This document shows positions 22,585 through 27,548 of a stretch of 64,000 nucleotides of DNA, in pieces. The notes under the pieces were generated by a model, which saw only the letters and a program-made list of their open reading frames with translations, ran no database searches and was not told the DNA's origin. The DNA comes from Luteimonas rhizosphaericola (GTDB taxonomy: Bacteria; Pseudomonadota; Gammaproteobacteria; Xanthomonadales; Xanthomonadaceae). Numbering within the stretch: the first letter of the stretch is position 1; each line of letters starts with the position of its first letter. The DNA lies in the NCBI RefSeq assembly GCF_029888045.1, contig NZ_JARXRN010000020.1, positions 252,283 through 316,282 on the forward strand, written 5' to 3'. Made by a program: the position numbers and the translations under genes.

Positions 22585-22625
22585 TTGCAACGGCCTGTTC
22601 TGGTGTTATAGTTGAATACAACACC
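22585..22625 (+). promoter_or_regulatory. Promoter and YtrA-type operator of the GntR/ABC operon
   Basis: A -35-like TTGCAA (22585-22590) and -10-like TATAGT (22607-22612) are separated by 16 nt. A 24-bp imperfect palindrome with perfect GGTGTT/AACACC ends (22602-22625) covers the -10 and the expected transcription start. YtrA-subfamily GntR regulators bind operators with GTGTA/TACAC-type ends, so this is the likely site for the repressor encoded two genes downstream. The first start codon is 25 nt away. Confidence 0.75.
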
Positions 22626-22650: not shown

Positions 22651-23166
22651 ATGAACCGCAAGCTCCGCAACACGATACTGGCTTTCTCGGTGACCGGCAT
22701 GGTGCTGGCGCTGGGCCTGATGGCGGCCCGCCCCATGGTCGACGCCGGGGCGGGCGAAGTCCGCGCGCTCGCCGGCGCGCAGGCGCCCGCGGCTCCGGCG
22801 CGCACCGCCCCGCTGATGCCGCTCGCCGACGCTGCCGGGCAAGACGTCTCCGCGCTGGACCAGGCCGACGCCGTGGCGGTCCGGCTGCAGGCGCGCGGCC
22901 CTCAGTACGAGGCGGCGCTGGTGGACGCGCGTTCGGTCGAACAGGCTGTTGCGCTCACCGTGAGCTTTGTGACCACCGTGGTGGCCGAGTCCCTGATGAC
23001 CCCGTCGCTGGAGACTGACCCGGCCACCGCCGCGGCCTCCGACGCAGGCGACGGGAGCACCGACACCGATGCCGCCCCGGCCCGCCGCAGCGGCAGCGTG
23101 CGCAGCGCGATCGCCGTCCCCTACTTCTCGTTCGCACGCGGGACAGGCCGCGCCGGCCGGAGCTGA
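22651..23166 (+). CDS. Unknown membrane-anchored protein, first gene of the ytr operon
   Basis: A 171-residue protein that I do not recognise. Residues about 8-27 are a hydrophobic segment after a basic start (MNRKLRNT), suggesting a signal anchor or signal peptide. The rest is Ala/Asp-rich with no Cys: a low-complexity linker, a central region with QARGPQYEAALVDARSVEQAVALTVSFVTTVVAESL, which may be one amphipathic helix, and an acidic then basic tail. ATG 22651 is chosen because an ATG at 22612 would lie inside the operator. It is followed after 4 nt by the GntR gene, so it belongs to the regulated operon and may be an accessory subunit or a stress-signal sensor for the ABC transporter. Confidence 0.6.
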   Translation: MNRKLRNTILAFSVTGMVLALGLMAARPMVDAGAGEVRALAGAQAPAAPARTAPLMPLADAAGQDVSALDQADAVAVRLQARGPQYEAALVDARSVEQAVALTVSFVTTVVAESLMTPSLETDPATAAASDAGDGSTDTDAAPARRSGSVRSAIAVPYFSFARGTGRAGRS

Positions 23167-23170
23167 TGCC

Positions 23171-23542
23171 ATGACCAATATCCAGTGGAGCGATGGCGCT
23201 CCCATCTACCGCCAGCTGAAGGAACGCGTGATCGCGATGATGCTGGACGGGATGCTCAAACCGGGCGACGCGCTGCCGTCGGTGCGCCAGGTCGCCGCCG
23301 AATACCAACTCAATCCGATCACCGTCTCGCGCGCCTACCAGGAGCTGGCCGACGAGTCGCTGGTCGAAAAACGAAGGGGCCTAGGCATGTACGTCACCGA
23401 AGAAGCCGCGAAGAAACTCCTGCTGAACGAACGCGAACGCTTCCTGCGCGAGGAGTGGCCGCTGGTGCTCGAACGCATCCAGCGGCTGGGCCTGGCGCTG
23501 GAGGACCTGGTGCAGGCGCAGTCCGACGGGGGTGCGCGATGA
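23171..23542 (+). CDS. GntR-family transcriptional regulator, YtrA subfamily
   Basis: A 123-residue repressor. The N-terminal winged helix (about residues 8-75) has the GntR signature PIYRQLKERVIAMMLDG, LPSVRQVAAEYQLNP and TVSRAYQELADE. The C-terminal part is only about 45 residues, too short for a FadR or UTRA ligand domain, which defines the YtrA subfamily, whose members dimerise through short helices and autoregulate ABC operons. The predicted target is the palindrome at 22602-22625. Its stop overlaps the ABC ATPase start in ATGA. Confidence 0.9.
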   Translation: MTNIQWSDGAPIYRQLKERVIAMMLDGMLKPGDALPSVRQVAAEYQLNPITVSRAYQELADESLVEKRRGLGMYVTEEAAKKLLLNERERFLREEWPLVLERIQRLGLALEDLVQAQSDGGAR

Positions 23543-24417
23543 ACGCACCGGCCGACACCCTGCAGGTGGTCGATGCGCGCGGCCTGCGCAAGGCCTACAA
23601 GAACAAGCTCGCGCTCGACGGCGCCAGCTTCCGGATCGACGCCGGCCGCATCGTCGGCCTGATCGGCCCCAACGGCGCGGGCAAGACCACCGCGCTCAAG
23701 GCGATGCTGGGCCTGATCCCGTTCGACGGCGAACTGAGCGTGCTCGGCCGCGACCCGCGCACCGAGCGCGACGAGCTGATGAAGGACGTGTGCTTCATCG
23801 CCGACGTGGCGGTGCTGCCGCGCTGGATCCGGGTGCGCGAGGCGATCGATTTCGTCGCCGGCGTGCATCCGCGCTTCGACCGCGCCCGCTGCGAACGCTT
23901 CCTGGCCAACACCCAGCTCAAGCCGAAGCAGCGCGTGCGCGAGATGTCCAAGGGCATGATCGTGCAGCTGCACCTGGCGCTGGTGATGGCGATCGACGCC
24001 CGCCTGCTGGTGCTGGACGAACCGACGCTCGGGCTGGACATCCTGTACCGCAAGCAGTTCTACCAGCGTCTGCTGGAGGACTACTTCGACGAGCAGAAGA
24101 CCATCGTCATCACCACCCACCAGGTCGAGGAGATCGAGCACATCCTCACCGACGTGATGTTCATCCGCGACGGCAAGGTAGTGCTGGACGCGCCGATGGA
24201 GGACGTGGGCGAACGCTTCGTCGAGGTGCTGGTGAACGCCGACCGGGCCGAGGCCGCCCGCGCGCTGGGTCCGATCGACGAGCGCGCCCTGCCCTTCGGC
24301 AAGACCGTGATGCTGTTCGACGGCGTGCCGCAGTCCTCGCTCGCCGCCTACGGCGAAACCCGTACCCCCGGGCTCGCCGATCTGTTCGTCGCCACGATGA
24401 AAGGAACCTACGCATGA
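23539..24417 (+). CDS. ABC transporter ATP-binding protein (YtrB-like)
   Basis: A 292-residue ABC ATPase. Walker A GPNGAGKT is at residues 43-50, Walker B LLVLDEP at about 156-162 and the switch His at 194 (TTHQVEE). The signature loop reads REMSKGM (about 134-140) instead of LSGGQ, a variation common in YtrB/BcrA-type exporters. The C-terminal about 65 residues are an extension without a recognisable domain. Together with the next protein it forms a two-gene exporter whose substrate is unknown; related systems respond to cell-wall-active peptides. Confidence 0.92.
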   Translation: MNAPADTLQVVDARGLRKAYKNKLALDGASFRIDAGRIVGLIGPNGAGKTTALKAMLGLIPFDGELSVLGRDPRTERDELMKDVCFIADVAVLPRWIRVREAIDFVAGVHPRFDRARCERFLANTQLKPKQRVREMSKGMIVQLHLALVMAIDARLLVLDEPTLGLDILYRKQFYQRLLEDYFDEQKTIVITTHQVEEIEHILTDVMFIRDGKVVLDAPMEDVGERFVEVLVNADRAEAARALGPIDERALPFGKTVMLFDGVPQSSLAAYGETRTPGLADLFVATMKGTYA

Positions 24418-25786: not shown

Positions 25787-26638
25787 ATGAAGACCGTCGC
25801 CACCCTCGCCCTGCTTGCCGCCCTGCCGCTGGTGGCCGCCTGCGGGCGCGAACCGGATCCCGCACCCGTTGCCTCGCCGACGGCCGACGCGGACGCCGCC
25901 GACGCCGCGCCGGCGCCCACAACCGCGCTCGGCCGCACCGTTGCGCGCGCGCTCGACGAGGCCCGCAAGGAGTTGCGCGAAGGCGAGCTGAGCCTGAACG
26001 GCGATTACAACGTCACCGTCAACGGCAGGCGGATCCAGCGCAAGGCCGACGACCTGCCGAAAGCGGCGATCACCCCGGAAGGCGACCTGCGTATCTCCGG
26101 CACCCTCGTGCCCATGGATGCGCAGGCGCGCGCGCTGGCGCTCGACTACCGCAGCGCGATGCTCGACGTGGCCGAGGCCGGCATGGACCTGGGCGTGCGC
26201 GGCGCGGACCTCGGCATGAAGGCGGCAGGCGACGCCATCGGCAGCCTGCTGCGCGGCGACACCGAGCAGATGGAAAAGCGGGTCGAGGCCGAAGCCGCCC
26301 AGCTGGAGGAGGCCGCGATGCAGCTGTGCGAGCAACTCCCGCGCCTGCTGGCGGCCCAGGAGGCCCTCGCGGCCGCGGTCCCGGAGTTCGCGCCCTACGC
26401 GCGGATGACCGCCGGCGACATCGACGACTGCCGCGACGGCGACCATGGCGTGGCCGCCTCCGAGACGGCGACCGCCGCGCGTGCCGCGGACGACGCGAAC
26501 CTGGATGCCGCCGCCGAGGCCGATGCGGCGGCCGCGTCCCGCGCCGCCAAGGCACCGGACCGGGCCCGCGACGCACGCGACGATGCCGCCGCGGATGCCG
26601 CCACCGAAGCCGCCGCGGCGACCGATCCGACCCGTTGA
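25787..26638 (+). CDS. YggN-like (DUF2884) lipoprotein
   Basis: A 283-residue lipoprotein: signal peptide with lipobox VAAC at about residues 16-19. The core (about 45-225) resembles the YggN/DUF2884 family of periplasmic proteins, with AITPEGDLRISG, AEAGMDLGVRGADLGMKAAGDAIGSL, and a Cys pair in MQLCEQLPRLLAAQEAL and MTAGDIDDCRDG that could form a disulfide. The last 60 residues are an Ala/Asp-rich low-complexity tail. The start has a clean AAGGAG site. It follows the ytr genes on the same strand after the hairpin cluster, so co-regulation is possible but unproven. Function unknown. Confidence 0.78.
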   Translation: MKTVATLALLAALPLVAACGREPDPAPVASPTADADAADAAPAPTTALGRTVARALDEARKELREGELSLNGDYNVTVNGRRIQRKADDLPKAAITPEGDLRISGTLVPMDAQARALALDYRSAMLDVAEAGMDLGVRGADLGMKAAGDAIGSLLRGDTEQMEKRVEAEAAQLEEAAMQLCEQLPRLLAAQEALAAAVPEFAPYARMTAGDIDDCRDGDHGVAASETATAARAADDANLDAAAEADAAAASRAAKAPDRARDARDDAAADAATEAAAATDPTR

Positions 26639-26717
26639 CCACGCGGCAGCGCGTGGGCTTCAACCTTTCGCGCCGCCGCCGCATCCAAGCTGGCCAACAC
26701 TTCGAATGGAGCGCTCC

Positions 26718-27548
26718 ATGACCCGCCACGCCGCCCTCGCCGCCCTGTTGCTCGCCGCCGTCTCCGCCCCCGTCCTGGCCGAAGACTGCCAGCATTCGGC
26801 TCCGCGCAGCCTGGACCTCGATTTCGACGGCGTGCGCACGGTGATGTTCGACGTCGGGCCGCATACCCTGCGGGTCGACGCCGGGCCGGCCGCCACCGGA
26901 CAGGTCGAGGGACGCGCCTGCGCCTCGGACGAAGGCCGGCTGCAGGCGCTCACCCTCGAGGCGGCGCGCGACGGCGACAAGCTGGTGGTACGGCTGGGCC
27001 ACGACAGCAACTGGAGCGGCATCTCGCTCGGCAAGCGTTACGCGTACATGACCCTGGACGCGAGCGTGCCCGCCGACGTGCTGGTTCAACTGCAGGTGGG
27101 ATCGGGCGATGCGCGCGTCACCGGCGCGTCCGCGGCCAGCGCCGATGTCGGCTCCGGCGACGCGGAGCTGCTGCGCATCGCCGGCCGGGTGACGGCGAAG
27201 GTGGGGTCGGGAGACGTCGAGGTCGACGATGCCGGTGCGCTGCACGTGCTGTCGATCGGCTCGGGCGACCTCGAGGCCGCGAACGTGCGCGGCGAGGTGG
27301 AGGTCGGCAGCATCGGCTCGGGCGATTTCACCCTGCGCGGCGCCGCGGGCGATGTCTCGATCCGGTCGATCGGCTCCGGCGATGCCGACCTGGCCGACGT
27401 GGCCGGCAGCGTCGACGTGGGATCGGTCGGATCGGGCGATCTCGATGCGCACCGGATCGGCGGCGACCTGCGGGTCGGTTCGGTCGGCAGCGGCGACCTG
27501 GACCACAGTGGCGTGGCCGGCCGGGTCGAGGTTCCGCGCAAGCGCTGA
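26718..27548 (+). CDS. Secreted DUF4097-like protein with eight GSGD repeats
   Basis: A 276-residue secreted protein with a signal peptide (about residues 1-21, ending SAPVLAED). After a beta-rich N-terminal region, residues about 135-270 consist of repeats of about 15-22 residues, each containing GSGD followed by a short strand; eight copies are present (GSGDARV, GSGDAEL, GSGDVEV, GSGDLEA, GSGDFTL, GSGDADL, GSGDLDA, GSGDLDH). The layout suggests a right-handed beta-helix like DUF4097/DUF2807 proteins. ATG 26718 is preferred over ATG 26706 because GGAG is six bases upstream of it. It follows the YggN-like gene by 79 nt. Confidence 0.78.
   Translation: MTRHAALAALLLAAVSAPVLAEDCQHSAPRSLDLDFDGVRTVMFDVGPHTLRVDAGPAATGQVEGRACASDEGRLQALTLEAARDGDKLVVRLGHDSNWSGISLGKRYAYMTLDASVPADVLVQLQVGSGDARVTGASAASADVGSGDAELLRIAGRVTAKVGSGDVEVDDAGALHVLSIGSGDLEAANVRGEVEVGSIGSGDFTLRGAAGDVSIRSIGSGDADLADVAGSVDVGSVGSGDLDAHRIGGDLRVGSVGSGDLDHSGVAGRVEVPRKR

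Follow-up and report, generated by a model that had tools for sequence, protein, structure and literature searches.

What does a small gene of no named family do at the head of a repressor-controlled transporter operon? The question is raised by a locus of Luteimonas rhizosphaericola, located on a stretch of 64,000 nucleotides which is referred to as the window. A sequence-only reading had placed a protein of 171 residues, with one hydrophobic segment, an Ala/Asp-rich body and no recognisable family, at the start of a ytr operon and had suggested that it may be the working partner or the sensor of the transporter. The gene is called the leader in the following.

The leader gene and its operon

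The reading frame at 22651-23166, encoding 171 aa, was borne out (Table 1), and so was the composition of the body: alanine accounts for 23 % of all residues and for 28 % of residues 29-144, aspartate for 6 % and 9 %, respectively. The hydrophobic segment stood as the strongest 19-residue stretch of the protein (residues 8-26, Kyte-Doolittle 2.05), but it is not the only one, as a second, weaker stretch covers residues 99-117 (window 22945-23001, Kyte-Doolittle 1.62) inside a predicted helical hairpin. Sixteen of 79 aligned family members reach a value of 1.6 beyond residue 45. Profile searches agreed that the family is not a recognisable one: the leader had no match in Pfam at E<=10 and nothing close to the cut-off in NCBIfam, the family profile retrieved no PDB sequence at E<=1, and a fold search with the AlphaFold model gave nothing in PDB at E<=0.001. 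A Pfam identity for the family was discarded, as a scan of the 79 members yielded weak scattered matches only, none of them shared by more than two members. The AlphaFold model (mean pLDDT 70.9) predicts a helix at residues 4-25 and a confident hairpin at residues 64-116, while the tail is poorly determined; members of 65-100 aa are too short for this hairpin. A literature search, with subscription papers mostly outside its reach, found no published description of the leader family.

Table 1 Features of the leader operon and its upstream region, with positions in the window
Feature	Position	Strand	Evidence
Sigma-70-like promoter TTGCAA-16-TATAGT, -10 within operator	22585..22612	+	1 found vs 0.1 expected in shuffles
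Palindromic operator GGTGTT-N12-AACACC, presumed YtrA-type repressor site	22602..22625	+	0 mismatches
Leader protein, 171 aa	22651..23163, stop codon 23164-23166	+	ORF call, ATG to TGA; alignment A1 of family; AlphaFold model
Hydrophobic N-terminal segment, residues ~4-26, presumably membrane-targeting	22660..22728	+	Hydropathy; model helix 4-25
Portion of variable spacer, predicted helical hairpin, residues 64-116	22840..22998	+	AlphaFold blocks, pLDDT 92-97
Conserved C-terminal motif R151-x5-P157-Y-F-S-F161	23101..23133	+	R, P, S invariant; protein-level conservation
YtrA-type GntR repressor, 123 aa	23171..23542	+	PF00392, E 7.9e-15; start 4 nt past leader stop
ABC transporter ATPase	23539..24417	+	PF00005, E 1.5e-20; 4-nt overlap with gntR
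ABC-2-like permease, 355 aa	24414..25481	+	PF13346, E 0.023, weak, under cut-off
DUF2884 lipoprotein-like gene	25787..26638	+	Homologue in 74/80 relative loci
DUF4097/DUF2807 gene, weakly LiaG-like	26706..27548	+	Homologue detected in 43/80 relative loci

Behind the leader follow the genes of a GntR-type repressor, an ABC transporter ATPase and a permease. All three were found in 80 of 80 relative loci, with a median identity of 85 % for the ATPase and 54 % for the permease. The GntR has the traits of the YtrA subfamily, namely a GntR HTH with a short C-terminal part, an ABC operon and a long palindromic operator with a 12-nt spacer. The best NCBIfam matches were PmtR for the repressor (E 1.2e-15) and PmtA for the ATPase (E 8.5e-38), both far under the cut-off. 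The permease retrieved nothing from PDB at E<=0.1. The DUF2884 and the DUF4097/LiaG-like genes after the permease may belong to the same envelope-stress unit.

The leader had been described as the first gene behind a repressor-controlled promoter, and this agrees with its place at the head of the GntR/ABC operon, downstream of the operator and the promoter-like sequence of Table 1. The operator GGTGTTATAGTTGAATACAACACC is a perfect site 25 nt upstream of the leader start codon, with 0.00 sites expected by shuffling at <=3 mismatches allowed. It carries <=1 mismatch in all 79 tabulated loci and was present in 13 of 13 genomes scanned (<=3 mismatches).

Conservation of the leader in front of gntR

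The GntR query found 516 loci, of which the best 80 were compared. Their assemblies are titled Luteimonas, Lysobacter, Vulcaniibacterium, Pseudoxanthomonas, Xanthomonas or Lysobacteraceae/Lysobacterales, two of them just Proteobacteria or Gammaproteobacteria. With the window included, all 81 loci have a reading frame that carries P[YF]xS close to its end and terminates 1-11 nt upstream of gntR. Two loci (L055, L062) with the motif were excluded from the alignment of 79 sequences, since their leader is cut by a contig edge. The aligned leaders share the end R-x5-P-[YF]-F-S-F, a feature absent from the sequence-only reading; the window leader reads RSAIAVPYFSF at residues 151-161. R(-6), P(0) and S(+3) are invariant in 79 of 79 sequences, F(+4) occurs in 78 and F(+2) in 77 (exceptions L057, L106, L109). 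The leaders are between 74 and 174 aa long and differ in length mostly in the spacer. At the motif the synonymous codons vary, with all four TCN codons used for Ser160, five codons for Arg151 and three for Pro; invariant residues encoded by varying codons indicate selection on the peptide. The pN/pS ratio was 0.71 for the N-terminal 28 codons, 0.80 for the middle, 0.42 for the C-terminal end and 0.16 for GntR, from counts over 1353 pairs in which synonymous sites are partly saturated; both leader ends are thus more conserved than the fast-evolving middle. Slow codons at the motif were considered and rejected: third-position G+C drops there, but the terminal parts of gntR and abc show such a drop as well.

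Among 198 genomes of the family, the GntR was detected in 191 (E<=1e-30) and the leader profile in 168 (E<=0.01), leaving 30 with no match to the profile. Among the matches listed, 150 profile places in 147 genomes were compared with the GntR places, weaker places lying outside the comparison; a place counted as adjacent if a GntR match lay <=350 nt downstream of it, on the same strand of the same contig. Directly before gntR were 148 of these 150 listed places, 143 at the first comparison and then five of six places with an initially unlisted GntR, most of them at a distance of 2-14 nt. The two non-adjacent places lie at contig breaks: in one genome (G024) the leader is split over two contigs, in the other (G110) the leader match reaches the contig end and the GntR was not found. 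Seven weak matches away from gntR (E 2.6e-4 to 0.0078) in 21 rechecked genomes, none with P[YF]xS, look like chance or signal-peptide matches. The expected co-occurrence with a YtrA-like GntR and ABC genes was thus found, and a lack of homologues at the same place, which would have spoken against the earlier view, is clearly not the case: the homologues are position-locked in relatives.

A loose version of the motif fitted 49 of 54 family loci (40 hand-picked across genera, 14 from another search). Four of the five others retain the leader with an altered end, VPFFAF in L140 and L151, MPFFDY in L163 and LPYVPS in L158. In the fifth, L141, the motif is lost. The named and unnamed sets share some genomes, so that their 143 tails comprise 134 distinct sequences.

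In the order, the GntR was detected at E<=1e-15 in 144 of 151 genomes, a set that includes family members. We inspected 45 order loci from ten other families, 40 hand-picked and five from the order search, choosing for each ORF the start with the most hydrophobic N-terminus (ATG favoured), <=75 nt from the best operator-like site. In 45 of 45 loci, an ORF whose N-terminus is hydrophobic begins 15-56 nt after this site, a count without a shuffled control. The sites have 0-5 mismatches; those with the poorest match, in f8, in f9 and in isolated loci of f2, f3 and f11, may not be true sites. Most of the ORFs end <=16 nt from gntR or overlap it, with larger gaps in L210 (21 nt), L237 (31 nt), L220 (62 nt), L204 (160 nt) and L205 (154 nt). 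An MPYYSFG-like C-terminus was found by pattern in 15 of the 45 loci and, in another frame, in L204 and L205, which retain the motif despite the long gap. The other 28 tails are divergent, with lineage-specific ends such as LLIPK/LLLPK in most f8 loci, LLPWF/LLPGF in several f9 loci and LLPF/LLLF in f7. Tandem leaders occur in L241 (G283), where a 60-aa ORF without the motif ends early and is followed by a 111-aa ORF with MPYYSFG, 5 nt before gntR.

Outside the order the GntR is rare, with a match at E<=1e-20 in just nine of 226 genomes. Four of these loci (L248-L251) have a leader-like ORF ending 27-93 nt before gntR and one (L256) has a hydrophobic ORF of 48 aa. No small ORF with a hydrophobic N-terminus precedes gntR in L253, L254 and L255, and the first two of them retain homologues of the ABC and permease genes. 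Ten distant YtrA-type/ABC loci were also found in family genomes (L165-L169, L171-L175), and in eight of them no ORF of 35-220 aa with a hydrophobic N-terminus ends near gntR. L173 and L174 contain overlapping GTG/TTG frames; in L171 a hydrophobic-N ORF of 401 aa ends 78 nt before gntR. A subunit of the ABC transporter would be expected wherever the transporter is, and L253 and L254 lack the leader. Together with the eight distant loci, they make the leader look like an add-on and not like an essential transporter subunit.

Related systems and a second operator-like site

In Bacillus subtilis, the ytrGABCDEF operon likewise starts with a small transmembrane protein, YtrG, of unexplained function, together with the YtrA repressor and ABC genes (PMC12772383, PMC8060467). 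Unlike the leader operon, it comprises two ATPases, two membrane subunits and YtrF, and the accessible text of these sources does not mention a conserved tail of YtrG. The likeness between leader and YtrG is one of position only. The name ytr operon has its basis in the YtrA-type GntR and the ABC layout; the downstream genes are unlike those described for B. subtilis. The B. subtilis YtrA-type system is described to respond to cell-wall antibiotics (PMC12772383).

PmtR/Pmt of Staphylococcus aureus and ClnR/ClnAB of Clostridioides difficile are likewise self-repressed systems of a YtrA-subfamily GntR with an ABC transporter. The reported effectors are phenol-soluble modulins for PmtR (PMC5080381) and LL-37 for ClnR (PMC6117091), and the ClnR-guarded ABC system is reported to respond to antimicrobial peptides (PMC6117091). 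In contrast to the leader operon, the regulator gene comes first in both operons, and the accessible portions of the sources mention no leader gene.

HpaR1 of Xanthomonas campestris (XC_2736) is a YtrA-subfamily, autorepressing regulator (PMC4730234; locus tag PMC8995066); unlike the window GntR, it has no leader gene named in the accessible text. The hpaR1 mutant is reported to show a 13.84-fold increase of XC_2740 and a 3.21-fold increase of acrA (PMC6430473); XC_2740 lies four locus tags from hpaR1. The Luteimonas genome contains a single further operator-like site (L258, G000:C12:119618-119641, - strand, with 3 mismatches); 20 nt separate it from the gene of an RND efflux adaptor downstream (TIGR01730, E 4.3e-83). 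All 11 other genomes of the family that were scanned likewise carry a site with 3 mismatches ahead of this adaptor gene and on its strand, with the aligned part of the adaptor beginning 19-240 nt after the site; no such site was present at this gene in two scanned genomes of another family. On this sequence evidence the YtrA-type repressor probably also controls the efflux pump. The site at the RND adaptor and the raised acrA and XC_2740 levels of the hpaR1 mutant suggest that the window GntR may be the HpaR1 orthologue.

Function of the leader

The leader family is real, conserved and unnamed; its motif is well defined and its place constant, and its function has to be inferred. We favour, at a probability of roughly 0.35, the reading that the leader serves the YtrA-type repressor system as its sensor, not the transporter as a subunit, and acts on the repressor, probably co-translationally. 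The sensor role proposed earlier may be a good guess. Position, architecture, tail conservation, the tight spacing and the operator and promoter-like sequences are observed, and the position lock, the tight junction and the occurrence of leaderless GntR-ABC operons point to a role at the repressor. The C-terminal domain of YtrA-subfamily repressors consists of two helices only, possibly a serious limit to the binding of an effector (PMC4494728); a separate sensor would make up for this, and the conserved tail may be the sensor that a YtrA-type repressor lacks.

Monitoring-substrate arrest peptides (SecM, VemP, ApdA, the RQH family) are described as small upstream ORFs with an N-terminal localisation signal, a variable spacer of >30 residues and a conserved C-terminus near the stop (PMC10987492). 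Three of these four published criteria apply to the leader, which has an N-terminal signal by hydropathy, a conserved C-terminus and a spacer of >30 residues: measured between the hydrophobic stretch and the last motif residue, it amounts to at least 34, in the median 73 and at most 140 residues in the 152 sequences with both features (some genomes counted twice). This wide spread resembles that of the Sec-type monitors in the same source. The first criterion applies by half, as the leader is a small unannotated ORF upstream of gntR rather than of secA, secDF or yidC. The leader thus differs from these arrest peptides in preceding a repressor gene and in a motif without a RAPP-like ending. The same paper reports arrest peptides with novel motifs and, beyond Sec and YidC, YwcI before the antiterminator gene sacT (PMC10987492). 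With an architecture that fits most of the criteria, these precedents place a co-translational sensor first among the explanations.

The membrane insertion, the pausing and the direction of the effect are what we infer. The N-terminal hydrophobic segment would send the leader to the inner membrane, and the tail R-x5-P-[YF]-F-S-F would be read inside the ribosome exit tunnel right before the stop codon. As long as the N-terminus inserts normally into the membrane, the chain would be pulled through. A disturbance of insertion or of the envelope would make the ribosome pause close to the leader end, over or just before the gntR start; repressor synthesis would drop, which would release the transporter operon as well as the RND efflux pump as a likely second target. 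That a nascent-chain or membrane-insertion sensor of this kind operates throughout a bacterial order and, by signalling membrane insertion or envelope state to a YtrA-type repressor, governs an ABC system together with an RND efflux pump, we regard as doubtful.

Several observations speak against a co-translational sensor. The downstream gene is gntR and not sec or yidC. Published arrest motifs are missing from the tails: NAP/NSP-stop, DGMK-stop, LPPP and KYxIW occurred in none of 143, and a RAPP-like sequence in one (L111), upstream of the conserved motif. The tail of one clade presumably resembles the SecM arrest sequence; this candidate was rejected, as the RAPP-like residues are absent and the likeness fails for the family core. 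RNA structure at the leader/gntR junction was not beyond that of shuffles (mean z +0.64 from -60 to +20 in 40 sequences), which makes a SecM-type hairpin unlikely. The motif Pro is followed by 9, 13, 14 or 15 residues to the C-terminus in 36, 11, 13 and 19 sequences, respectively, so that only leaders of the short class would let a paused ribosome reach over the start of gntR. In L204 and L205 the motif persists at a long distance from gntR, and outside families f1, f3 and f12 the tail differs or is partly alike in seven of nine families (small numbers). Finally, the hairpin predicted for the long window leader may indicate a protein that folds and acts in trans.

Such a protein would be a membrane-anchored partner with its N-terminus in the inner membrane, a periplasmic spacer and an aromatic tail that docks either on the permease or on the surface of the membrane; it would be an accessory or sensor subunit of the ABC system. 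We consider this the main rival, only slightly less probable than the co-translational sensor. It is consistent with a hydrophobic N-terminus in nearly all sequences (Kyte-Doolittle >=1.6 in 167 of 183, some genomes twice), with the hairpin predicted for a long member and with the constant company of gntR, abc and permease. By its sequence the tail is commonly an aromatic or leucine-rich, interface-seeking patch near the stop: the Wimley-White interface score exceeded that of shuffles (p<0.05) in 79 of 79 family members, 31 of 45 order members and one of four outside members. Its Kyte-Doolittle hydropathy, in contrast, was above shuffles (p<0.05) in just seven of 79, nine of 45 and none of four, respectively. 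The leader evolves far faster than the ABC gene, with 20-70 % identity against the median of 85 %, and among the listed profile places none with the motif lies away from gntR. The idea of a working partner of the transporter is weakened by the leaderless L253 and L254 with their ABC and permease homologues and by the degenerate L141 (G047, an 81 % complete assembly), in which a 37-codon ORF without membrane segment and motif stands before gntR, while operator, gntR and abc are kept.

Alternatively, the leader could supply a built-in peptide effector: its tail, left in the cytosol after failed insertion or cleavage, would bind the YtrA-type repressor and free the DNA. In favour of this, PmtR and ClnR, both of the YtrA subfamily, are reported to bind amphipathic peptides (PMC5080381, PMC6117091), PmtR and PmtA were the best NCBIfam matches, under cut-off, of repressor and ATPase, and the last 30 residues of the family leaders are cationic (median net charge +6). 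Outside the family the tails do not keep this charge, with a median of 0 in 15 motif-bearing order members, and in the accessible text the peptides bound by PmtR and ClnR do not come from a leader gene. A built-in effector appears quite unlikely.

Still less probable is a precursor of a secreted peptide, or a substrate of the ABC exporter, with an N-terminal signal peptide and a tail released outside the cell. An N-terminal signal, a variable middle and a conserved end fit such precursors, and PmtA, the under-cut-off match of the ATPase, belongs to a peptide exporter, but the core is near-invariant across many genera, unlike species-specific signals, Pfam recognised no peptidase or receptor among the five genes following the leader, and related transporters occur without it. 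It is least probable of all that the ORF is a mere translational coupler which brings ribosomes to the gntR start and whose sequence hardly matters: the stop lies 1-5 nt before gntR in 77 of 79 loci, and the short ORF of L141 still stops 2 nt before gntR, but the invariant R, P and S with their protein-level codon variation and the hydrophobic N-terminus in ten other families stand against it.

The leader is present at nearly every examined locus of this GntR in the order, with a defined motif and an operator, which makes the role of the first gene testable. If the leader, as the sensor of its repressor, is an arrest peptide, it would extend this class to the control of a transcriptional repressor.
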